A stretch of DNA of 32,335 bases from a virus: IMG/VR virus record IMGVR_UViG_3300030090_005878, positions 1-32,335 of that record; one strand, 5' to 3'. The notes under the pieces are model-generated. The model had not been told where the DNA came from. It saw only the letters and a program-made list of their open reading frames with translations, and ran no database searches. Below, one piece after another: positions 7 through 17,587 of this stretch. Every line of letters begins with the position of its first letter. The stretch's first letter is position 1. Position numbers and translations under genes: made by a program.

Positions 7-513
7 ATGAGTTATAGTCAAGACCTTTGTACTGTTGGTCGTTCTGGCGCGTTTCAAGGACAGGTTTTTGGTTTATCTGCTGGTCGTACTGTAAGAGATG
101 AAAATTGCGAAAGGCTTAAATTATCTAAGTATCTATATGATACAGGCATGAAAGTCGCTGCAGTTGGAATATTATGCCAAGACCCTAGAGTTTTTAAAGC
201 AATGCAAATGGCAGGAACTCCTTGTCCTTACGAGGGCAAGATAGGTTCTGAGGCTCAAGCATCTTGGATAGCTAATCCACACCATAGACCAGACGCAAAA
301 GAATATAAAGCAAGACTTAAAGCCGATGCAAAGATTGCAAAGAAAAATAAAAAGGCGGAAGCAAAAAGAGTTAAGAAGCTAGCCTCAGAAGAATACTGGA
401 CATTTATTAAAGCTTGTAAGAAAACAAGGAATGATGAAGGTCTTAGAAAAGGATTGGGAACTTGTAGCAAGGAGTGGAATGACTTGAATGAGGAATCTAC
501 TATTAATCCTTAG
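7..513 (+). CDS. Conserved phage hypothetical protein, Lys-rich C-terminus
   Basis: A 168-residue soluble protein with no signal peptide or membrane segment. Residues about 30-80 form a compact conserved-looking block with cysteines at 8, 34, 57 and 73 (motifs ENCERLKLSKYLYD and MAGTPCPYEGKIG). I recall this block from uncharacterised proteins next to structural genes in marine phages. Residues about 95-125 are a Lys/Ala-rich helix. The reading frame is open upstream of the ATG at 7, so the true start may lie outside the window. The stop lies 26 bases inside the next gene, so translation is probably coupled. Function unknown; a virion-associated role is inferred only from position. Confidence 0.75.
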   Translation: MSYSQDLCTVGRSGAFQGQVFGLSAGRTVRDENCERLKLSKYLYDTGMKVAAVGILCQDPRVFKAMQMAGTPCPYEGKIGSEAQASWIANPHHRPDAKEYKARLKADAKIAKKNKKAEAKRVKKLASEEYWTFIKACKKTRNDEGLRKGLGTCSKEWNDLNEESTINP

Positions 514-2812
514 TTTATTATTTGTACCAATAGTTAATGCAACTTATGTGTACGAAGCAAACCAAAGCCTTTTTAATCTAGCAAATGAGCAAAACACTAC
601 TAATATGGGTGTTGGTGACGACCAAGTATCTTCAGCCTTTACACTAGATTTTACGTTTACTTTTTATGGCGAAGATTTTACTACTGCACGAATGGCTACT
701 AATGGGTGCCTACATTTTGGGTCGTCAGGAGGCTATTGTAATGACTACACACCTGATCCTTTACCTGAAATTACATATACCCTCTATCCTTTCTGGACTG
801 ATCTAATACGAGACAACGGATCAAAGGTTTTAGCCAAGAACTTCACCGATAAAAGTGTTTTTGGTTGGTACAACTTACGAGAATACAATCGAAGCAACAC
901 AGACAATAGTTTTGAAGTTGTGTTGTGGAAAGCCGATGACAGTTTTGAGTTTAGGTACGGTGGTTTAAACATTATTAACCACGATGTATTGATTGGAGAA
1001 CAAGGTGCAGCAGACGAACTATACACTTACTTGTTCCATGACGAATGTAGCACTGGCACAACGAATGTAGCAGGCACTTGTGTCAACACCAATTGGAACG
1101 CCACGGCATCAAACACTTTATTGGAAAACGGCGGTTCTTTATATGGCCTAGGCTCTGGGAACGCTCTTGATTGCAGCAATCCTTTAAATAACACCGCTTG
1201 TGCCGGATATGCTGCTGCGTACTTGACACAGCAATGTGATTTAGATGGATTGTATTCTACTCAGTGCCCTAATTATTGGGACGATTTATTTGATTATGAA
1301 TGTACTTTGGACTCACAACACTCCCCCGCGTGTCCAGGGTATGTGGTAGAGTATGAAATTTACAACGCATACGAGGACATGTATGGATATGAAGACGACT
1401 ATGACCAATATGGTTATGAAGATGAAAGCACCTATTTTGCAGACGGTTCGTACTATGAAGATGCGTTTTTCCAAGAGGATTACTACTATGAAGGAGTGGA
1501 TAGTTTTCTTGATGAGCCATGGGAAGTAGAGACTTATTTTGAAGAAGAGGAATATTTCGAGCCTTTTTTTGAGGAGGAATATTTCGAGCCATTTTTTGAA
1601 GAACCGGTGTTTGTGGAAGAATTGGAGGCTTTCCTTGAAGAGGAGGCTCTTGTCTTCGACTACGTTGAAGAGGTGTTTATTTTTGAAGAGTTTTATGAGG
1701 AAGACCTTTTGTTCGTGGACTACGATCTTCCAGAAATAGACACCGTTTTATTGGACCACTTTGAACACGAAGAGCTTATAGAAGAGTTTTTTGAAGAGGA
1801 AGCCGTTGAGTTTTTAGAGTTTGAAACCATAGAAGAATTGGAGGAATGGGTTGAGCAAGAGGAAGCTGAAAATATTGCTGCTTTATCTGAGGATGAAGAT
1901 GGAGAATTGGAGGATACGGAGGCAGTTGAAGAAGAGAGCGAGGACAGAGAAGAAGCTGTCGAAATTGCTGTCGCAGAGAATGAAACCAAGAAGGACAACA
2001 AAAAAGCCGAACAATTAAATGTTGTTGCTAATACCATTAGGGCAGCGACAAACAGTGTAAGCGGTACCACTTCTGGGACTTCTGCACAGGCAACGGGAAC
2101 CTCAGCCTCGTCTGGGGGCTCTTATGGCGGCTCTACGAGCGTTTCTAGTTCCCAAGCTACTGCTGTGGTGTCTTCGGTATCCGGTGGCTCTATAAGCACA
2201 AATAACTCACCAAGTATTTCTGCTCAGGTTGCGAGTTCGGCTGCGCAAACACAACAAATTTTGTCTATGAGCGCTGCTGATGCAGGGAGCTCCTCGTTCA
2301 GTGGTTCGGGGACCATGGACACAGAAACAACAACCACGGACCAAGGACCGGGGACCACGGACACCATGACCTCTACTGCCGATGCTTCTGTTTCCGTAGA
2401 CCTTATGCCAACGGTGGGGGGCACACAAACAACAGGCACCGATGCACAAGTACAAGACATGCAGGGTCAAATTGATACGGCGGTCTCAGGAGGCATGACA
2501 GCAAGTGAAGCAGACCAGATTGCCGATCAAATTGTGGCCCAAAACATACAGAACCAACAAGAAGAATTAGAGCAAGAGCAGCAGGAAACAGGGGAATACG
2601 GTGATTCCAGCCAACTTGTTGCCTATATGGGCTATGTACCTGGCTTTAGTGCGTACAGGCAAGTAACTCTAGCGGACGCGTCCGAGTGGTATGAACCAAA
2701 AGCAATTTATGGTAATGTATCCATACCGGATAATACTTCGGCATTTGTTGGTTTATATGGCGAAAGTTTAACTGGAATGAAAAATTTAATGGATATGCAG
2801 CCTAAGCTATGA
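488..2812 (+). CDS. Secreted modular virion or surface protein: NIDO-like domain, Cys repeats, acidic-aromatic tract, Ser/Thr/Gly linker
   Basis: 774 residues. The N-terminus is a classical signal peptide (Leu-rich core, cleavage expected near VNA-TYVYEA, residue 18-19). Residues about 35-190 resemble a nidogen-type (NIDO) beta domain (FTFTFYGEDF, MATNGCLHFG, FWTDLI, FGWYN, FEVVLW). Residues about 228-290 hold three roughly 22-residue cysteine repeats of the form C-x8-C-x-[GN]-Y. Residues about 288-505 are extremely rich in Glu, Asp, Tyr and Phe and include a tandem duplication. Residues about 505-690 are Ser/Thr/Gly-rich, followed by a Gln/Glu-rich stretch and a short folded-looking C-terminus. 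The ATG at 488 has an AAGGAG upstream. This could be a fibre-like or cell-surface protein; a signal peptide on a phage structural protein is unusual. Domain calls are by eye. Confidence 0.75.
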   Translation: MRNLLLILSLLFVPIVNATYVYEANQSLFNLANEQNTTNMGVGDDQVSSAFTLDFTFTFYGEDFTTARMATNGCLHFGSSGGYCNDYTPDPLPEITYTLYPFWTDLIRDNGSKVLAKNFTDKSVFGWYNLREYNRSNTDNSFEVVLWKADDSFEFRYGGLNIINHDVLIGEQGAADELYTYLFHDECSTGTTNVAGTCVNTNWNATASNTLLENGGSLYGLGSGNALDCSNPLNNTACAGYAAAYLTQQCDLDGLYSTQCPNYWDDLFDYECTLDSQHSPACPGYVVEYEIYNAYEDMYGYEDDYDQYGYEDESTYFADGSYYEDAFFQEDYYYEGVDSFLDEPWEVETYFEEEEYFEPFFEEEYFEPFFEEPVFVEELEAFLEEEALVFDYVEEVFIFEEFYEEDLLFVDYDLPEIDTVLLDHFEHEELIEEFFEEEAVEFLEFETIEELEEWVEQEEAENIAALSEDEDGELEDTEAVEEESEDREEAVEIAVAENETKKDNKKAEQLNVVANTIRAATNSVSGTTSGTSAQATGTSASSGGSYGGSTSVSSSQATAVVSSVSGGSISTNNSPSISAQVASSAAQTQQILSMSAADAGSSSFSGSGTMDTETTTTDQGPGTTDTMTSTADASVSVDLMPTVGGTQTTGTDAQVQDMQGQIDTAVSGGMTASEADQIADQIVAQNIQNQQEELEQEQQETGEYGDSSQLVAYMGYVPGFSAYRQVTLADASEWYEPKAIYGNVSIPDNTSAFVGLYGESLTGMKNLMDMQPKL
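1547..1600 (+). repeat. 27-bp tandem duplication in the acidic tract
   Basis: Two adjacent 27-bp units (1547-1573 and 1574-1600) differ at two bases and encode consecutive EEYFEPFFE segments. This is in-frame slippage or duplication that lengthens the acidic-aromatic tract. Confidence 0.9.
2307..2362 (+). repeat. GGACCNN heptamer mini-repeat cluster
   Basis: CGGGGACCATGGAC (2307-2320) is followed by a run of heptamers (GGACCAA, GGACCGG, GGACCAC) ending at 2362. They lie inside the Ser/Thr/Gly linker of the 774-aa gene and encode Thr/Gly-rich residues. The 14-mer at 2349-2362 recurs exactly at 21723-21736 inside an unrelated minus-strand gene. Confidence 0.7.
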
Positions 2813-2943
2813 AAGTAAAGTCAGTTAAATCGGGAAAGAAAACGCCCCGTGGAGGAAAGGCTAAAAGCCCAATAAAATCGGGCATTGCAAAGGGTTGTGG
2901 TGCGGTAATGAACGACAGAAGAAAAGTAACAAAATATTATTAG
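2809..2943 (+). CDS. Tiny basic marine-phage protein ending GCGAVMNDRRKVTKYY
   Basis: A 44-residue Lys/Gly-rich protein (start MKVKSVKSGKKTPRGG). Its ATG overlaps the previous stop as ATGA, and its TAG sits within the AGGAGGA ribosome-binding site of the next gene. The C-terminal motif G-C-G-x-V-M-x-[DN]-R-R-K-x-T-K-Y recurs in tiny proteins of many marine phages as far as I recall. The pI must be very high, which suggests nucleic-acid or membrane-surface binding, but no function is known. Supported by coupling at both ends and the recognisable C-terminus. Confidence 0.75.
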   Translation: MKVKSVKSGKKTPRGGKAKSPIKSGIAKGCGAVMNDRRKVTKYY

Positions 2944-2951
2944 GAGGAAAC

Positions 2952-3320
2952 ATGGACTGGTTTCAATCAAAAACAACACAATTAATTGCCTTGGCAGGTA
3001 TCGTCAGCACACTCGCTGGCTTCGGGTACCAGGGTGCTACATACATTAACAGAATAGAGAACTTAGAAAACAAGATAGCGACTCTAGGCGCAACAGAAGA
3101 TGCGCAAAACGCTATCGAAGAACGTTTTGCCTCAATAGAAACTTCGGTTAATTTCATCAATAAGACAATAGACGGAAGTATAGTTCCAGATGTTAAAGAT
3201 AATGGCGAAATGATACAGGTTATAGAGGTCGATCTTTCAACCATGGAAACAAGGATACAGTCTCTTGGAAACCAGGTAGAAAGACTTGAGAATAAAAACG
3301 AAAACCCTTTAGCTAACTGA
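2952..3320 (+). CDS. Small single-pass membrane protein with coiled coil
   Basis: 122 residues from ATG 2952, chosen because AGGAGGA lies just upstream; an in-frame start at 2895 would give 19 unlikely extra residues. Residues about 8-30 (LIALAGIVSTLAGFGYQGA) form one hydrophobic segment near the N-terminus. The rest is predicted helical and coiled-coil (IENLENKIATLG, METRIQSLGNQVERLENK). It is the first of a run of small membrane or lipoprotein genes that look like a lysis cassette. It could be a holin, an antiholin or a virion membrane-interacting protein; the sequence does not decide between these. Confidence 0.7.
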   Translation: MDWFQSKTTQLIALAGIVSTLAGFGYQGATYINRIENLENKIATLGATEDAQNAIEERFASIETSVNFINKTIDGSIVPDVKDNGEMIQVIEVDLSTMETRIQSLGNQVERLENKNENPLAN

Positions 3321-3328
3321 GGCGAGAT

Positions 3329-3721
3329 ATGAATGACGGATACCCAAGCGGCAGATTTGCGGGCGACATGGACAGAAATGAAGTCGAAATGGACCTCAAT
3401 AAGTTTATGGCGATGGTCGAAGAGATTGGTGCTTTAAAAGATAAAATAAGAGATTTAGAAGACACAAAGAACAATAACCCCCATCAGAGATGGATCTTTT
3501 TAGCGCAAGCTGTGGACTCCTGGCGTATTTTTCCAAGAGCCTTTTTAACGGTCTACATCTTTTTACTTTATTACACCGTAATGTGGTTTATGGGCTTGGA
3601 GAACCCAACCTTTGAACAGTCTGGACTTATATCTATTATTGTAGGTGCGGGTGCAGCTTGGTTTGGGCTCTATGCAGGAACGTCTGGCTCTTCTAAGAGC
3701 TTTAAAGGCGATAAAGAATGA
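3329..3721 (+). CDS. Holin-like protein, two transmembrane segments
   Basis: 130 residues. The N-terminal half is hydrophilic and helical (about 15-50), followed by an amphipathic WRIFPRAF segment. Two strongly hydrophobic segments lie at about 72-90 (FLTVYIFLLYYTVMWFMGL) and 100-117 (LISIIVGAGAAWFGLYAG). The tail is short and charged. Related two-helix proteins occur in many marine phages and are often labelled putative holins. The gene is flanked by other small membrane proteins and overlaps the next as ATGA. A role in permeabilising the inner membrane is inferred from topology and context; no endolysin gene was seen nearby. Confidence 0.6.
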   Translation: MNDGYPSGRFAGDMDRNEVEMDLNKFMAMVEEIGALKDKIRDLEDTKNNNPHQRWIFLAQAVDSWRIFPRAFLTVYIFLLYYTVMWFMGLENPTFEQSGLISIIVGAGAAWFGLYAGTSGSSKSFKGDKE

Positions 3722-4137
3722 AGCTAGTATTGTTTTTGTGTGCGCTGTTGTTGGTGTCTATATCTGTTAATGTGATTGTTTTCACTAAACTGGATAAGGC
3801 AAAGATAGAACTACAAACCGCAATAAACAATCAAGCGGTTTTGGAAAGAACCATAGCCGAACAAAACGATCAGATTAAAAAAGCGGTAGAGACGGCTAAG
3901 AAAACGCAACAGCAAATACAGTCGCTTAATAATCAATACACAGAGTCGCAAGCGCAAGTAACAAAGCTAAGAAGCAAGTTTGCAAACTTTAATTTAGAGG
4001 GAATGGCTTTAACGGAGCCCGCTGTTTTAGAAGGTAAGGTCAATAGAGCTACAGCTAGGGTTGGCGATGATTTAGAAAGAATAACAAGTCCAGAGCAATT
4101 TGATGAAAAAACTACTGATACTGCTACCCTTAATTAG
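3718..4137 (+). CDS. Rz-like inner-membrane spanin candidate (i-spanin)
   Basis: 139 residues with an N-terminal membrane anchor (residues 3-22, LVLFLCALLLVSISVNVIVF). A long Gln/Lys-rich coiled coil follows (about 25-90), then a short C-terminal region. This is the expected architecture of an i-spanin, which links inner to outer membrane and completes lysis of a Gram-negative host. The 3' end overlaps, in another frame, a lipoprotein gene, which matches the Rz/Rz1 arrangement. It starts with an ATGA overlap to the holin-like gene. Spanins diverge strongly, so the call rests on topology and gene arrangement. A virion-associated coiled-coil protein is the alternative. Confidence 0.55.
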   Translation: MKLVLFLCALLLVSISVNVIVFTKLDKAKIELQTAINNQAVLERTIAEQNDQIKKAVETAKKTQQQIQSLNNQYTESQAQVTKLRSKFANFNLEGMALTEPAVLEGKVNRATARVGDDLERITSPEQFDEKTTDTATLN

Positions 4138-4486
4138 TGGGTGTTCTACCTACTCTTTGTTTGAGGGACTAACTGACAACCAACCGGAAACAAAACCGGT
4201 TGAAATCGTGCGTGTTGCACAATCCGCCCCTATTTACCATCCACCGCTGCCAGAGCCTATTAAAGCATCGCCAGTGGAGTGGCGTATATTGTCCCCTGAT
4301 GTGATGCAAGAATATTTAGATAATGTCGAGTCTGGGGAAGAGCCGAGAGTTGCTTATTACGGACTAACAAGCCAAGGCTACGAAAACCTGTCTATGAACA
4401 TGGGTGAAATTAAACGATACTTGGAGCAAATCCTTCATATTGTAGGATATTATAGGGAGATAGACGAAGAAGAGGAAAAAGAATAA
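4103..4486 (+). CDS. Lipoprotein, Rz1-like outer-membrane spanin candidate (o-spanin)
   Basis: 127 residues from ATG 4103; the TTG immediately upstream is less likely. MKKLLILLPLISGC is a signal-peptidase II leader with lipobox LISGC, the lipidated cysteine being residue 14. The next region is proline-rich (SAPIYHPPLPEPIKASPVEW), typical of Rz1-type proteins, but the protein is longer than classical Rz1. The second half (WRILSPDVM, YYGLTSQGYENLSMNMGEIKRYLEQ) matches a conserved phage block that I know without a function. It begins inside the i-spanin-like gene in a different frame. O-spanin is the best guess; a structural lipoprotein is possible. Confidence 0.6.
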   Translation: MKKLLILLPLISGCSTYSLFEGLTDNQPETKPVEIVRVAQSAPIYHPPLPEPIKASPVEWRILSPDVMQEYLDNVESGEEPRVAYYGLTSQGYENLSMNMGEIKRYLEQILHIVGYYREIDEEEEKE

Positions 4487-11803: not shown

Positions 11804-14800
11804 ATGGCTTCTTTAACGCAGGCCCAACTTGACGAGCTTTTTTCTCCGAAAGGCACTGAAACACAGCCTCCTCCCCCACCCGAAGAAGATATACCCGATG
11901 TCCGCGGACAACGGAAACAATCTTGGAGAGAGATGGTTGGACAAGCCTCTTTAATCAAACAAGAAATGGCACTAGACGCTTCAGAGGAAGTTGCAGAAAC
12001 CTTTGAAGGCATTGGCCCTCAAATCGGACAAGTGTTTAAAAATGCCAAAGATGCTTTAGAGCTAAGTGCTCTGGAAGGTTCACGTTACGGCTTTGCCCAA
12101 GCCCCTGGTGCCTATGCAGGAATCCCTAGAACTATCGAAGAACGAGAGTTATTAAACCAGCAAATTGACGAAGCTGCCGTGGAGCTAATTGAACAAATCA
12201 AGAAAGGTATTAAGCGAGTCGAAGACCTCAACCCTGAAGAGTTAAGCAACCTACAACAAGGGATCAGAAGCGGCGTGATAAGTTTTACCATGATGACACC
12301 GTTATTGGTGGCAAGCATTTTTCAAAAAAGTCCGACAGCATTGATTACTGGTATGTCTTTGTTGACCGCGGGCGACAGTTATACAAGTGGAAGAGCCGAG
12401 GGATTATCTCACAAAGACGCATTTATTTATGGTGGAATAGACGGATTTATTGAAGGCGCGACCGAAATACTTCCTGCTAAAACACTTTTGAAACTCTTCC
12501 CCGGCGCCAAAGACGCGGCTGGGAGTTTTTCTAAAAACGCGCTCAAGTTTCTTTTCCAAGACATTGCAGGAGAGCAGGCGGCCACGATTCTACAAAACCT
12601 AAACGCTTATCAGTACGATTTGGACAAGGAAAGGTTGGCCATTGAAAACGATCCAAACATAGACGGCGTGGAAAAAGAACAACTTTTAGGTGAACTGGCT
12701 AAAAAACGTGCTGTAATAACCTTCTTTGCAACAATCACAGCCGGGGGTATGCAGGTTACTACTGCCAAGATGATTGACTACGGTTTGTCGGACAAAGAGA
12801 TAAAAGAAATGATTACGCCTAAAACAACGGGTTATCAAATGTTGACTCCGGAAGAGCAAAACAGGATACAGCAAGAATATCTTGACTGGCAGGAAAAAAT
12901 TGCTACTGAAACAACGGACCAAGAAAAAGTTGCTTTGGGTTTGGCGCAAACAGGTACTGCGCAATCGGAAGCCGTTCAAATATTAAATGATCTTGAGAAA
13001 GAAAAACAAAATGTTTTAAAAGATCCCGACTTAAAAGACACTAAAAAACTAAAGGCCGCTGTTGAAAAAATAGATGAAGCTATTCTTAAGCAAGAAGAAA
13101 AAGTTGCTCGTATTGAGCAAACTCGACTAGAGTTTGAAAAGGTTGATGAACGGCTAAAACGTTTAAGAGAAATCGAAGAAGAACTTAGGTACAGCGAAGA
13201 CGCACAAATCACCGAGGAACTCAACCAAGAAAAGACAGCTCTCTTATCGGAAATCAAAATGGAAGGACCGGGGACCGGGGTTCAACGACTAGAGTCTGTC
13301 GAGTACACTCCTTTTGAGATTGAAGAAGGGGTGGTTGGCCTGGAGAATACTCCGGAAGCACAAAAAATGAAGGGCAAGACAGGGTTCTTTAATCCAACTG
13401 TGCAGAGACTTTATGACGAGCTCATAGAACCGGGGACCGCGGACCGGATTGTTACTGCTTACAATACAGTAGCTCAGAAGATGGCGGATCTTGGGTTTAC
13501 TTCTCAAGGCACCGTGGACAAAAAGGCTCCTTTGGTCATCAAAGAAATGCAAAAAGACCTTCGACGTTTGATAACACAATCAAAAAATCTTTTAAATAAA
13601 CGGTTGGCGAAACGTCGTTTAGACAACAAACGTGCGGAAGGTGCCATAGAAGAAACAGAATACAATCAAAAAGTGTTAAAAAATAATCAGTCGATTGCTG
13701 AAATTGAGGCAAAAATCGACCGGATTATTGAGCGCTCCCAAGAACCTGTGCTGCAACTCCCCGATCTCCCTGAAAACCTAGAAAACCCCTATGGGGTCAA
13801 CAGCCGTTTCTTTGTGCCCGGTGTGTTCAGAGAGTTTATAAGCAAGTGGGTGCGTGCCAATAAATTTAACAACGTTATTGTGTACAAACCCACAGCGGAA
13901 AAAGAAGGTGTGCTTCAAGACCAGGTTCCCGAAGAACTACAAGAAGACATAAACCCGATGCCTGCCGTTCCTTTTAAAAGCGTACCGTTTGATTCGACAA
14001 TACGGTTGTACTTTTATGACATGGCTAGAACGGGTGATTTTAGTGAAAGAGCGCTTAGAGACCCGTTGACCGGGGAAGTTTTTTATGCGGAATACGATGC
14101 TATAGAATTTGTTGATCCGCTTTCAGGAACGCTGGAGCTTAATGAGAACCTGTTGCCCTCTATTGAAATGGACGGTAAAACCTACCAGGCGTTGTGGGCA
14201 CCGGAAACCCAATCAAGGGCTTTAGTTAAAATGATGGGAGATCCAGCAATGCACCCTGAAAACCTGGGGTGGATTCCCGCACGGGGAACAAGCACGAGTG
14301 ATTGGGCGGCTTGGTGGTATGACCGTTTTAAAAGTTTGTTCCGTCCCAGAGGCGTGCGTCCGACAATCATGGAAGAACTACAAACGGGTCCCGAAGGCCC
14401 GATAGCCAAGGGCAGGCTGTCTGAAAGACAACTTAACCGGATTTTTAGAGACATTGCAAAAATTCAAAAAGCCTTAGAAAAAAGCATTGAAAGGGGTTTG
14501 ATAAAAATAAGGGCCACTAGAGAGGATGAAGGCGCAGTCTACGTATCAGGGGACTTTTATCTTGACCCAATAACAACCATGGATCGTTTTAAAGAGTTAA
14601 TCGCCAAATCGTTTAGAGGCAATGAAGATGCACAAAAAGAATTAAGGCGATTGGGTCAGGGAGAACTGGTCGATGCAATTGTAAAAGGAAGAAAAAGAAT
14701 AAGCAAAAACTCAAGACGGCTCATTGATTTGGTCAAAAAAATTGATCCGGACTACACCGTTTATAGCAAAGAAAGAATAGCGCTGCTTGAAGATGCGATT

Positions 14801-17587
14801 GAGCGCTACATGGGCAGAATTTTTGGCGCGTACGTGTTTCCTGATTGGCGTCCTCCCAACAGACGAACCGCTACAAAAAGAGAAAAAGATCAGCACAACG
14901 CTGCGGTCGAGCAGTTGGCAGCAATCTATCACAATAGAACAGGTGTCCCTATAGAAGAAGCCACAGCGCAAGCTGAAAAAGATTTAGATATTTTATACAG
15001 CGGCACAGGACAGCAGCGAGCCGAGCTTTTTGTGTCTATGTTTGAGTTTACCCCACCTTATCTGACAGCGGAGACAGGAGGAGAAACCTTGTTGTTGCCG
15101 CAACTTAAGCAAAAAAGAGCGGACATTCCGAGCGAGGTAAGAAAAGCTTTGGGCGAAGTCACCGAGTCTTGGGCTCAAGCACAGATGACTGCAATGAAAC
15201 AAGAACAGTTTATTGCTGTGACCGAATATTTATTAGAGTTGGCAGAGATTGGTAACGCTCCTGCAACGCGTTTTCTTTCTTTGGAGGAAACACCCATGTA
15301 CAACACACAAATCACCATCCCTGGTGACGTGTTAAACCCGCTTAACGGGTACTACACAACGCCTGCCATGGCGCAAGCGATTATGAAAACCATGGGTTAC
15401 GGTCCGTTGCGCCGTTATTTAAACGACATGCCCGCACTCCTTAATCCTCTTAAACAACCGTATTTAAGCGCACAGGGGGCCATGGGGTATATCTCTCTTG
15501 CTTATTTAAACCTTTCCATAAAAACACAAAGCAGAAACCTACAAAGCGCGATGTTCTTTCCTCAAATGTCGGGCAATTGGCAGGCGTATAAAAACCCGCG
15601 TGCGGCAGCGCAGTATATTAAAGAACAGTTTGGAGACATGTCTTCAGCGGAACTGGATTATATTGTAGGAGAAGGAATCATTGGTTCAAGTGTAATGCTT
15701 GGAGAACGAAAAGCAATGCTGGACAGAATGCAGGGCATGGCCACATGGCAAGAGTTTACTGATTATTTAGAAGAAAGCGCTGTTAGCAGGGCTGAAAAAG
15801 GTAAAAAAGCGCTTCAAAGGTCGTTGCGCACAGCAGAAGAACTGTATCAACTGGCCGACGACATACCTAAAATAATGAATTATCTTGGAGAAAGAGAGTC
15901 CGGTTTTGGTATCTTTGCCCCTAACGGTGTGCAGAATCTATCAGAGCAGCAAATGGAAAACCTCTTTGACATGATCTCTGAGTTGATTGTTGAGCAAGGC
16001 GGTCGAAAAGTAACGCGTTCGGAAAGCACACCGGCCGAGAACCTACAAAAAGCCATTCATGCCAGGGCTTCGTTTCTTACTCGAAGAAACATTCCAAACT
16101 ACAATCGGTTGCCGAACATTCTCGATGCTTTAAGAATGAGCTTGGTTGCCAATTTTCCTGGCTTTAATACTGCGGTAATAACAAGCCAAGCAAACGTTGT
16201 GAAGACCGCGTTGCTGGAGCACCAGTTGGCACACTCGGGCGATCCCGCAGTTGATGCCGGGCTAAAGTCTCGCTTGCAAAAAAGAGCCGCCTTGCGTGGA
16301 GTGGCTAATGGTGCTTGGATGGTCGGACCAGGAACGTTTATGGCAGCCGCTTCTGCACTACGCTTCGCAGGGAAAACGGCCAAAGTAGCGGGAATCAGTG
16401 TTGGAGCAACAGCACTGCTCGCTCCTCAAGCCTTGTCTCGTTTTGTTGCGGAGTGGTCGGTCAACAACAATCTTATTTTTGTATCAGATGCCGACGAAGA
16501 CGGCACGCTTGAAGTGTATGATTTTTCACACACGGATGGTTTTACGTTAATCTCTGAGCCGTCCAGGCTGCTCTTAAAGTATCTTGCCACCGATGCGTAT
16601 TTGGGAGAAGAGGCTTCAGATAAAATTTGGGACACATTTATGCAGTCTTTAAAAAACGTGCGATCAAGCTACACCGACGAAAAAATTATGAAAAGGGCGG
16701 TGTTGGAGTTTACCAGCGGAGAAGATCGAGAAACAGGCAGGCCCTACACAGATCCAAATGCGCCTTGGTGGAAACAACTAAAAGACAGAAGTACGCGTTT
16801 TATTAGCACTGTGTCGCCAAAAATTTTCCATGAGTCCCTTGATGTAGGAAAGGCTCTGGTGCTTACAGGAGAAGAAGCGCTGGATAAAAGAAGCAGAGAA
16901 AGAAATCTTTTGCGTTCTCTGGCCTATACTATGGGGTTTAAAACCGATCAAATTACTCCCAAAGAAATCATCAATGACTATAAAATTTCTGCTTTTAACA
17001 ACGCATTGAGTACCAGCGAATCGTGGGCCAAAGGTATTTTCTATAGAGCCGAGGGCCGCGAACTGGGTTACGACGACATGCCGGCGATGATCGCAGCTTA
17101 CGATGAGTTGCAACGACAACATTTTGAACAGGTGAGAGATTTGCGTTTAGATATTCATTGGATGGCACCCATTCTCGGTACTTCTCCTGCTGAAACATTT
17201 AACTTTCTTGCAGAAAAAGATCGGCTCAAATCTTTAAGAACAGCGGACAGAGCAAACATCATACCGGATCGCAACGACAATCCGTTGTATGTGCCCACCA
17301 GTATTTCCAGTTTTGTAAAGGCTTATGATACCGAGCTTAGGAACGTGCAATCAAAAAATCCGGATCTTTTGTCTGACCAAGAAATAAGCGAACGGGTCAG
17401 CACTTTGGCGGAAAGAATAGAAAGATTGTCTTATAACAAGTGGGCGCAAAAACCGGTTGCGTGGACATGGCAGGGGGTTGTTCAAAAATCAGTAGAGTTT
17501 GAAGAAAACAAAAAGAACCAAGACATTACAAGCCCAACAACGCTTTCTGACGAAGAGTTAAATGCTCTTTTTACTACAGAAGACTAA
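11804..17587 (+). CDS. Giant internal virion/ejection protein, LPD38-like C-terminal region (tentative)
   Basis: 1927 residues, the largest gene here, one base after the previous TAA. Hydrophobic segments lie at about 165-190 (ISFTMMTPLLVASIF) and 1505-1545 (FMAAASALRF, VGATALLAPQAL). Coiled coils lie at about 393-485 and 570-645. The block SYTSGRAEGLSHKDAFIYGG, followed by EGATEILPAKTLLK, recurs in giant phage core proteins. The region from ARASFLTRRNIPNYNRLPNI through NFPGFNTAVI to RFVAEWSVNNNLIF resembles the LPD38 domain of polyvalent phage proteins. I saw no transglycosylase, protease or polymerase motif. Similar short motifs occur at both ends (LTQAQLDELF and LSDEELNALF). Probably ejected with the genome into the host envelope. 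Its last 14 bases overlap the convergent nuclease gene. Confidence 0.7.
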   Translation: MASLTQAQLDELFSPKGTETQPPPPPEEDIPDVRGQRKQSWREMVGQASLIKQEMALDASEEVAETFEGIGPQIGQVFKNAKDALELSALEGSRYGFAQAPGAYAGIPRTIEERELLNQQIDEAAVELIEQIKKGIKRVEDLNPEELSNLQQGIRSGVISFTMMTPLLVASIFQKSPTALITGMSLLTAGDSYTSGRAEGLSHKDAFIYGGIDGFIEGATEILPAKTLLKLFPGAKDAAGSFSKNALKFLFQDIAGEQAATILQNLNAYQYDLDKERLAIENDPNIDGVEKEQLLGELAKKRAVITFFATITAGGMQVTTAKMIDYGLSDKEIKEMITPKTTGYQMLTPEEQNRIQQEYLDWQEKIATETTDQEKVALGLAQTGTAQSEAVQILNDLEKEKQNVLKDPDLKDTKKLKAAVEKIDEAILKQEEKVARIEQTRLEFEKVDERLKRLREIEEELRYSEDAQITEELNQEKTALLSEIKMEGPGTGVQRLESVEYTPFEIEEGVVGLENTPEAQKMKGKTGFFNPTVQRLYDELIEPGTADRIVTAYNTVAQKMADLGFTSQGTVDKKAPLVIKEMQKDLRRLITQSKNLLNKRLAKRRLDNKRAEGAIEETEYNQKVLKNNQSIAEIEAKIDRIIERSQEPVLQLPDLPENLENPYGVNSRFFVPGVFREFISKWVRANKFNNVIVYKPTAEKEGVLQDQVPEELQEDINPMPAVPFKSVPFDSTIRLYFYDMARTGDFSERALRDPLTGEVFYAEYDAIEFVDPLSGTLELNENLLPSIEMDGKTYQALWAPETQSRALVKMMGDPAMHPENLGWIPARGTSTSDWAAWWYDRFKSLFRPRGVRPTIMEELQTGPEGPIAKGRLSERQLNRIFRDIAKIQKALEKSIERGLIKIRATREDEGAVYVSGDFYLDPITTMDRFKELIAKSFRGNEDAQKELRRLGQGELVDAIVKGRKRISKNSRRLIDLVKKIDPDYTVYSKERIALLEDAIERYMGRIFGAYVFPDWRPPNRRTATKREKDQHNAAVEQLAAIYHNRTGVPIEEATAQAEKDLDILYSGTGQQRAELFVSMFEFTPPYLTAETGGETLLLPQLKQKRADIPSEVRKALGEVTESWAQAQMTAMKQEQFIAVTEYLLELAEIGNAPATRFLSLEETPMYNTQITIPGDVLNPLNGYYTTPAMAQAIMKTMGYGPLRRYLNDMPALLNPLKQPYLSAQGAMGYISLAYLNLSIKTQSRNLQSAMFFPQMSGNWQAYKNPRAAAQYIKEQFGDMSSAELDYIVGEGIIGSSVMLGERKAMLDRMQGMATWQEFTDYLEESAVSRAEKGKKALQRSLRTAEELYQLADDIPKIMNYLGERESGFGIFAPNGVQNLSEQQMENLFDMISELIVEQGGRKVTRSESTPAENLQKAIHARASFLTRRNIPNYNRLPNILDALRMSLVANFPGFNTAVITSQANVVKTALLEHQLAHSGDPAVDAGLKSRLQKRAALRGVANGAWMVGPGTFMAAASALRFAGKTAKVAGISVGATALLAPQALSRFVAEWSVNNNLIFVSDADEDGTLEVYDFSHTDGFTLISEPSRLLLKYLATDAYLGEEASDKIWDTFMQSLKNVRSSYTDEKIMKRAVLEFTSGEDRETGRPYTDPNAPWWKQLKDRSTRFISTVSPKIFHESLDVGKALVLTGEEALDKRSRERNLLRSLAYTMGFKTDQITPKEIINDYKISAFNNALSTSESWAKGIFYRAEGRELGYDDMPAMIAAYDELQRQHFEQVRDLRLDIHWMAPILGTSPAETFNFLAEKDRLKSLRTADRANIIPDRNDNPLYVPTSISSFVKAYDTELRNVQSKNPDLLSDQEISERVSTLAERIERLSYNKWAQKPVAWTWQGVVQKSVEFEENKKNQDITSPTTLSDEELNALFTTED
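13265..13280 (+). repeat. GGACCGG heptamer pair
   Basis: GGACCGG is repeated in tandem, giving CGGGGACCGGGG at 13269-13280, inside the giant virion gene. The same 12-mer recurs at 28938-28949 in the DUF3310 gene. Confidence 0.6.
13431..13445 (+). repeat. GGACCNN heptamer pair
   Basis: CGGGGACCGCGGACC, another member of the dispersed CGGGGACCRYGGAC family, lies within the giant virion gene. Confidence 0.6.

Follow-up and report, generated by a model that had tools for sequence, protein, structure and literature searches.

The phages that infect SAR11 and related marine bacteria occur in extremely high numbers, and names are lacking for the majority of their genes. Among the described systems that come closest to the locus considered here are the curli operons (type VIII secretion system, T8SS) of marine SAR11 phages: so far as the two accounts go, these operons involve envelope-directed exported proteins, have been described with CsgG, CsgF, CsgA/B, FecR, a kinase and a cyclase, and have been proposed to serve "sibling capture" (PMC7029224, PMC9599517). 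Another point of comparison is RemA of Flavobacterium johnsoniae, a mobile cell-surface lectin according to the title of a reference cited in PMC10994853. Here, we have analysed the virus record IMGVR_UViG_3300030090_005878, whose 32,335 bases we refer to as the window, and within it the gene that we call X (positions 488 to 2812, + strand), which encodes a putatively exported, modular protein; our comparison places X as one variant of a three-gene set, GRT-X-TMcc, that is shared with cultured marine phages.

In the window, X is preceded by GRT, a putatively exported, Cys-rich protein of which only the 3' part is present (7 to 513, + strand; the record starts inside the gene) and which shares 26 bases with the start of X, and it is followed by TMcc (2952 to 3320, + strand), which consists of an N-terminal hydrophobic segment (one transmembrane, TM, segment) and a coiled coil and ends in NENPLAN. 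The same order, in which one strand carries GRT 5' of X and TMcc 3' of it, is found in 102 of the 138 loci of the window family, a number that includes duplicate copies of some contigs; we have put the other 36 loci down to contig ends or, in seven of them, to a TMcc on the opposite strand. Such an opposite-strand TMcc lies directly after X in L096 (8115 to 8492), L100 (4724 to 5104), L119 (3091 to 3489), L103, L105, L106 and L108, and the three that were translated are clear TMcc homologues. X usually starts 22 to 28 bases before the end of the GRT stop codon, while in three loci it starts 372 to 375 bases past it; in L005, L007, L027 and L046, the open reading frames (ORFs) of GRT and X are some 350 bases apart. 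A small ORF that ends in NPL is situated just 3' of X in 112 of 120 window-family loci in all 61 of the pelagiphage type and in 39 of 63 other GRT-anchored loci (either strand), against a background of 248 out of 6,585 small ORFs, a control in which the TMcc genes themselves are included. All of the TMcc proteins of the window, HTVC202P, Mosig, HTVC033P and HTVC023P finish with NPL and then A or G, which may be a tag at the C-terminus or a motif for binding. Two further observations concern these flanks: a complete GRT (L002, 3821 to 4993, + strand) comprises a leader, a long Asn/Thr/Ser repeat and a Cys-rich domain, the last of which matches phrog_20531 (function unknown), and a basic ORF of 44 residues (window 2809 to 2943, + strand), similar to ORFs near X in some relatives, has an ATG that overlaps the stop codon of X (ATGA).

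The link between X and the other members of this set is carried by its conserved C-terminal region (residues 671 to 774; 2498 to 2809, + strand), identified with hmmsearch and hhalign; it had been missed in the first-pass annotation of this DNA, and its last 57 or so residues are common to other X proteins. A hidden Markov model (HMM) was built from 53 GRT-anchored X C-termini, none of them from the window family, and run on 13,674 ORFs: it has returned 149 matches at an expectation value (E) of up to 10, comprising 128 from the window family, 11 of the pelagiphage type and 10 others. The best window-family match has an E of 1.8e-7 and the copy in the window one of 4.5e-5; 70 window-family ORFs fall below 1e-3 (130 of the 141 ORFs of the family are 3'-complete), and the best match to the reversed ORFs, used as the null, is at 1.6. 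The X protein of HTVC115P matches the same HMM at 2.6e-32, and the alignment by hhalign of the GRT-anchored with the window-family C-termini gives 97% and an E of 8.1e-11. Since an HMM trained without the window family finds X, we regard X as a variant within a GRT-X-TMcc set that is modular and exported. The alignment of the window family with the pelagiphage C-terminus is at E 0.84 untrimmed and at 21% and E 0.001 when trimmed; conversely, 50 of the 58 non-family matches of a window-family HMM among the 13,674 ORFs are pelagiphage X proteins, all of them at E above 0.06.

A scan of viral contigs anchored on GRT has yielded at least 594 relatives from at least 600 stretches, of which 80 loci were kept; a sizeable ORF follows GRT in 77 of these, and among the 68 that are complete, 59 contain at least 30 Asp/Glu (D/E) residues within some 100 residues. 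Searched with tblastn against deposited records, GRT is found in 11: six Pelagibacter phages, two Roseobacter phages and three environmental records. X has been compared in ten of them (in MW202675, the stretch translated after GRT had stops), and seven of these ten X proteins contain at least 35 D/E residues within some 100. When 203 X proteins (a number with duplicates) are compared by blastp in their N-terminal regions, they form eight clusters, of which the window family is one. The view of X as a lone mosaic protein, taken in the first-pass annotation, is not borne out: X belongs to a modular family with fixed neighbours.

When this set is compared with the known systems, the likenesses are partial. 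The phage curli operons differ from GRT-X-TMcc, so far as they have been described, and CsgG was found in none of 15 records including the window (several of them fragments), while the search gave matches in 4 of 14 control genomes; because CsgG is absent from the 15 searched records, we have rejected a known phage curli operon. The proteins named "putative carbohydrate binding domain containing protein" in pelagiphages (HTVC033P gp45, MedDCM-OCT-S28-C10) resemble X in their place between GRT and a small gene, in their leader and in their acidic tract, but their N-terminal domain is weakly CBM_4_9-like (HTVC202P gp25, E 0.02), unlike that of the window. TMcc shares the outline of an inner-membrane spanin, i.e. 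an N-terminal TM segment and a coiled coil; the window, however, has Rz and Rz1 as separate genes, and X lacks a lipobox, has no Cys within its leader or directly behind it and has no match to the PHROGs at E of up to 0.1. PADLOC at the same threshold has returned nothing for X or GRT and weak matches of coiled-coil type for TMcc, an outcome on which a defence system was rejected. No description of the GRT-X-TMcc set was found in the open-licence literature.

The ORF of X, including the Ser/Thr/Gly linker that had been described for it, is confirmed at 774 residues, and its layout comprises a signal-peptide-like leader, a NIDO/RemA-like domain, three Cys repeats, an acidic-aromatic tract, a linker and the C-terminal region. 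The leader (residues 1 to 18; 488 to 541, + strand) reads MRNLLLILSLLFVPIVNA and is followed by TYVYE; a home-made, crude rule, which considers charge, a hydrophobic core and small residues at positions -3 and -1, places the cleavage after A18. The leader is present in all 52 of the 69 loci whose ORF covers this region, while 15 loci end at a contig edge before it (among them L061, which starts at the mature N-terminus), and in L026 and L055 the reading frame is broken at the leader, yet the tblastn matches begin at residues 7 and 3. The signal peptide that had been proposed is supported, as a signal-peptide-like leader, and homologues without a leader, looked for across the 69 loci, were not found. 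The rule is passed by 44 of 46 proteins of the X family, 69 of 77 GRT-anchored X proteins and 162 of 173 GRT proteins, against 35 of 319 other ORFs of at least 200 residues; in the deposited GRT records, 9 of 10 X proteins pass it at some in-frame start. These leaders suggest that X leaves the cytoplasm via export, and its ten invariant Cys residues would fit an oxidising compartment.

The N-terminal domain (residues 20 to 184; 545 to 1039, + strand) is beta-rich in an AlphaFold2 (AF2) model of residues 20 to 289 made with 55 homologues (predicted local distance difference test, pLDDT, 88.6; predicted template modelling score, pTM, 0.74), with strands until about residue 184 and helices in the Cys region after it. 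Pfam NIDO (PF06119) matches the segment from the window at E 6.2e-4 and 20.3 bits, below the gathering score of 25, and matches 42 of the 55 homologues, also below the cut-off (best E 3.4e-5); the full-length protein gives no NIDO match at E of up to 1, and a six-frame NIDO search of the 15 records found none, the same search being blank on all 14 controls too. The NIDO-like domain of the first-pass annotation accordingly stands as regards the segment and homologue matches and the beta-rich model, but not as regards the Pfam cut-off and the full-length search; a remote relation to NIDO is likely, and we do not claim membership of that family. Against the sequences of the PDB, a profile of the domain matches the gliding adhesin RemA (8gl6, chain D) at E 3.1e-8, aligning query residues 21 to 144 with RemA residues 49 to 176 over 124 profile positions, and we regard the two N-terminal regions as homologous. 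The two proteins differ at the other end: RemA is exported by the type IX secretion system (T9SS) via its C-terminal domain, whereas the C-terminus of X is a phage-type domain, and no T9SS C-terminal sorting domain was matched in X in NCBIfam (E of up to 0.1) or Pfam (E of up to 1). VIA-align of the N-terminal domain gives a best Z of 4.2, in a range rated as a common arrangement.

The domain is followed by three repeats of about 21 residues each (residues 229 to 285; 1172 to 1342, + strand), namely C229-x8-C238-x-G-Y, C250-x9-C260-x-N-Y and C272-x9-C282-x-G-Y; all three repeats that had been reported are present, with the spacing of eight occurring once and a spacing of nine twice. All ten Cys residues of X are invariant in an alignment of 36 sequences, and eight of them also in one of 55. 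The Cys region has a cathepsin match (best E 0.054) and CPW_WPC matches in 40 of 55 members (best E 0.018), both of which we have treated as weak. The acidic-aromatic tract (residues 288 to 505; 1349 to 2002, + strand), defined by composition and modelled at low AF2 confidence, is present much as had been noted from its Glu/Asp/Tyr/Phe content, with a length of 218 residues and with 41.3% D/E, 20.6% F/Y/W and 1.8% K/R; its richest 200-residue stretch has 42.5% D/E, compared with at most 23.5% in the other window ORFs of at least 200 residues. This composition is held across 36 homologues (D/E 37 to 42%, F/Y/W 14 to 21%), in which the length of the tract ranges from 160 to 286. A Ser/Thr/Gly/Ala linker with two conserved islands (residues 506 to 670; 2003 to 2497, + strand) leads to the C-terminal region. 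In the AF2 model of full-length X, the mean pLDDT is 40.9, with parts of the N-terminal domain and of a helix at residues 651 to 701 alone above 50 to 70; with this low confidence, the model says little about the tract.

Relatives of X are numerous in viral contigs: a scan with the window protein found 69 from 71 stretches, and one with an alignment at least 583 from at least 600. Among 50,697 deposited phage records, full-length X has no match at E of up to 1e-3, in a search from which part of X was excluded by the masking of low complexity in BLAST; at E of up to 10, its N-terminal part matches five records (best E 0.1) and its C-terminal part one (E 3). No match to NCBIfam was found at E of up to 0.1, the only Pfam match of the full-length protein at E of up to 1 is a chance one, and neither an Rfam match nor a tRNA was found. 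A search of BFVD has returned four viral proteins at E of up to 0.001 (best A0A6J5P7T5, E 3e-10), all but one unnamed. A host-derived surface protein was rejected: the N-domain profile, run over 84,980 bacterial and archaeal genomes, gave six stretches, none of them convincing, and the one accepted as a relative (L231; 25 residues only, E 2e-4) is taken as chance. Purifying selection acts on every measurable region of X: the ratio of nonsynonymous to synonymous divergence (dN/dS), from eight pairs with three saturated cells, is 0.06 to 0.10 in the N-terminal domain, 0.07 to 0.28 in the tract, 0.11 to 0.43 in the linker and 0 to 0.15 at the C-terminus. The mean share of the commonest residue in 36 homologues is 0.88 in the N-terminal domain, 0.54 and 0.72 in two parts of the tract, 0.41 in the weakest part of the linker, and 0.79 and 0.71 in the C-terminal region. 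Conservation, composition and dN/dS show that X is a gene under selection rather than an ORF that arose by chance, and, given the dN/dS of the tract while its letters and length drift, the tract is kept by selection for composition. Between the window and L010, synonymous divergence rises from 0.43 (residues 20 to 288) to 0.74 (289 to 505), as if the domains had recombined separately.

Downstream of X, the window contains in order the 44-residue ORF, TMcc, a membrane protein of phrog_10198 (3329 to 3721, + strand), an Rz-like inner-membrane spanin (3718 to 4137, + strand; phrog_739, E 5.4e-6), an Rz1-like outer-membrane spanin (4100 to 4486, + strand; phrog_812, E 7.7e-12; lipobox LISGC) and a virion structural gene, STAB (phrog_3287), which is located about 1.7 kb downstream. 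Seed genes are found near 18 of 21 distinct GRT loci with enough flank (none at L122, L044 and L135): the phrog_10198 protein at 18, lysozyme at 8, and Rz and Rz1 at 5 each. As the function of phrog_10198 is unknown, only lysozyme and the spanins count firmly as lysis genes. In L021 (5966 to 6773) and L055 (7384 to 7912), Rz and Rz1 lie on the opposite strand beside the set, so that the spanin block can invert. Elsewhere, L072 (218 to 2575, + strand) encodes a fibre-like protein with many NTAVG-type repeats upstream of lysozyme and GRT, and the window (11804 to 17587, + strand) encodes, after a DNA-ejection-like protein, a protein of 1,927 residues that has no match in PHROGs below E 0.03 and may be an internal protein of the virion that is ejected.

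Export and modularity are supported by the sequences, and it is from these that we infer a function. Tentatively, and with some reserve, we favour X as an envelope-bound binding protein that would mask receptors or exclude other phages. GRT, X and TMcc would be co-expressed, probably late, and X, as the member of the set that varies, would leave the cytoplasm through Sec in the course of infection; TMcc would serve as the inner-membrane anchor of the complex, X may dock on TMcc or GRT through its C-terminal domain, the acidic, disordered tract would form a long spacer, and the N-terminal domain would bind a glycan or receptor of the envelope or surface. Most probably, the result would be an altered envelope of the infected cell, which excludes other phages or spares the progeny from receptors on the dying cell or its debris; masking or exclusion is preferred because swappable N-terminal domains on a common dock point to phage-specific binding targets. 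The periplasmic or surface role that had been proposed is partly supported, as it fits with the conservation of the Cys residues, with an N-terminal domain of adhesin type and with the neighbouring envelope and spanin genes. Several observations weigh against this interpretation: the C-terminal link to HTVC202P, HTVC023P, HTVC033P, Baldr and Mosig is weak and suggestive only; the X proteins of CRP-207, CRP-810 and ctXG6705 have no acidic tract; eight X proteins fail the signal rule, as does that of HTVC202P, whose leader has no positive charge, which shows the limits of the rule; no outer-membrane targeting signal, which bears on surface exposure, was identified in X; and the N-terminal domain is strongly conserved in the X family, unlike what is expected of an arms race. 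A fold search of this domain against the PDB also gave 251 matches at E of up to 10 and none at E of up to 0.001, although a match to the N-terminal part of RemA is not expected there, because in the RemA complex the trapped substrate is, as far as its description goes, well resolved in its C-terminal domain alone (PMC10994853).

The spanin neighbours fit a role in lysis equally well, and the chief rival to masking or exclusion is a lysis accessory, in which GRT, X and TMcc would act with holin, endolysin and spanins, timing lysis or disrupting the envelope. Periplasmic antiholins time lysis, and the run from X through TMcc and the membrane protein to Rz and Rz1 in the window is suggestive of such a role, as are the lysozyme directly upstream of GRT in L072 or directly downstream of X in CRP-207 and CRP-810, the peptidase M15 after the set in HTVC023P and the frequency of seed genes around GRT. 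Yet the firm counts among those seed genes are low, the set is apart from obvious lysis genes in Mosig, where its neighbours are primase and ribonucleotide reductase, as well as in HTVC202P and Baldr, where it precedes terminase, a two-part spanin is already encoded in the window, and lysis does not call for variable domains of a lectin- or adhesin-like kind; we hold this rival somewhat unlikely, though the spanin and lysozyme genes nearby keep it near to the favoured reading. That X is instead a virion-associated adhesin, either one that is exported, freed at lysis and then adheres to debris or virions, or a component of the virion whose N-terminus resembles a leader, would suit the adhesin-type N-terminal domain and the STAB gene nearby, but X and GRT both have leaders, the Cys residues are conserved and the gene lies among membrane and spanin genes rather than tail genes, which makes it improbable; a tail fibre was rejected, X having no PHROGs match at E of up to 0.1 and both gene place and leader speaking against it. 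Still more improbable is a surface adhesin that clumps infected cells in the manner of sibling capture: the RemA-like domain speaks for it, and the lack of CsgG in the 15 searched records against it, and we know of no outer-membrane route for X, which also counts against it.

Our findings suggest that ocean phages with the three-gene set alter the envelope of their host in an unstudied way. We consider it doubtful, though worth stating, that many of the commonest marine phages carry GRT-X-TMcc as an envelope cartridge: a constant, exported, membrane-anchored platform with an interchangeable binding protein, in which the phages would exchange the N-terminal domain (NIDO/RemA-like, CBM-like or another) while the C-terminal dock stays conserved, and every infected cell would thereby display a phage-specific binding surface that decides which other phages or cells can interact with it. 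The set is carried by the cultured pelagiphages HTVC202P, HTVC023P, HTVC033P (gp46 to gp44), HTVC115P (gp54 to gp52) and Mosig, and is thus testable now, and the analysis supplies a name and a profile for searching to proteins that matched no family in PHROGs or NCBIfam here and none in Pfam above the cut-off. If the recurring set does pair a constant dock with exchangeable binding domains, it would be a large, unstudied route by which phages change the cell envelope, with consequences for superinfection and for the loss of viruses at sea.

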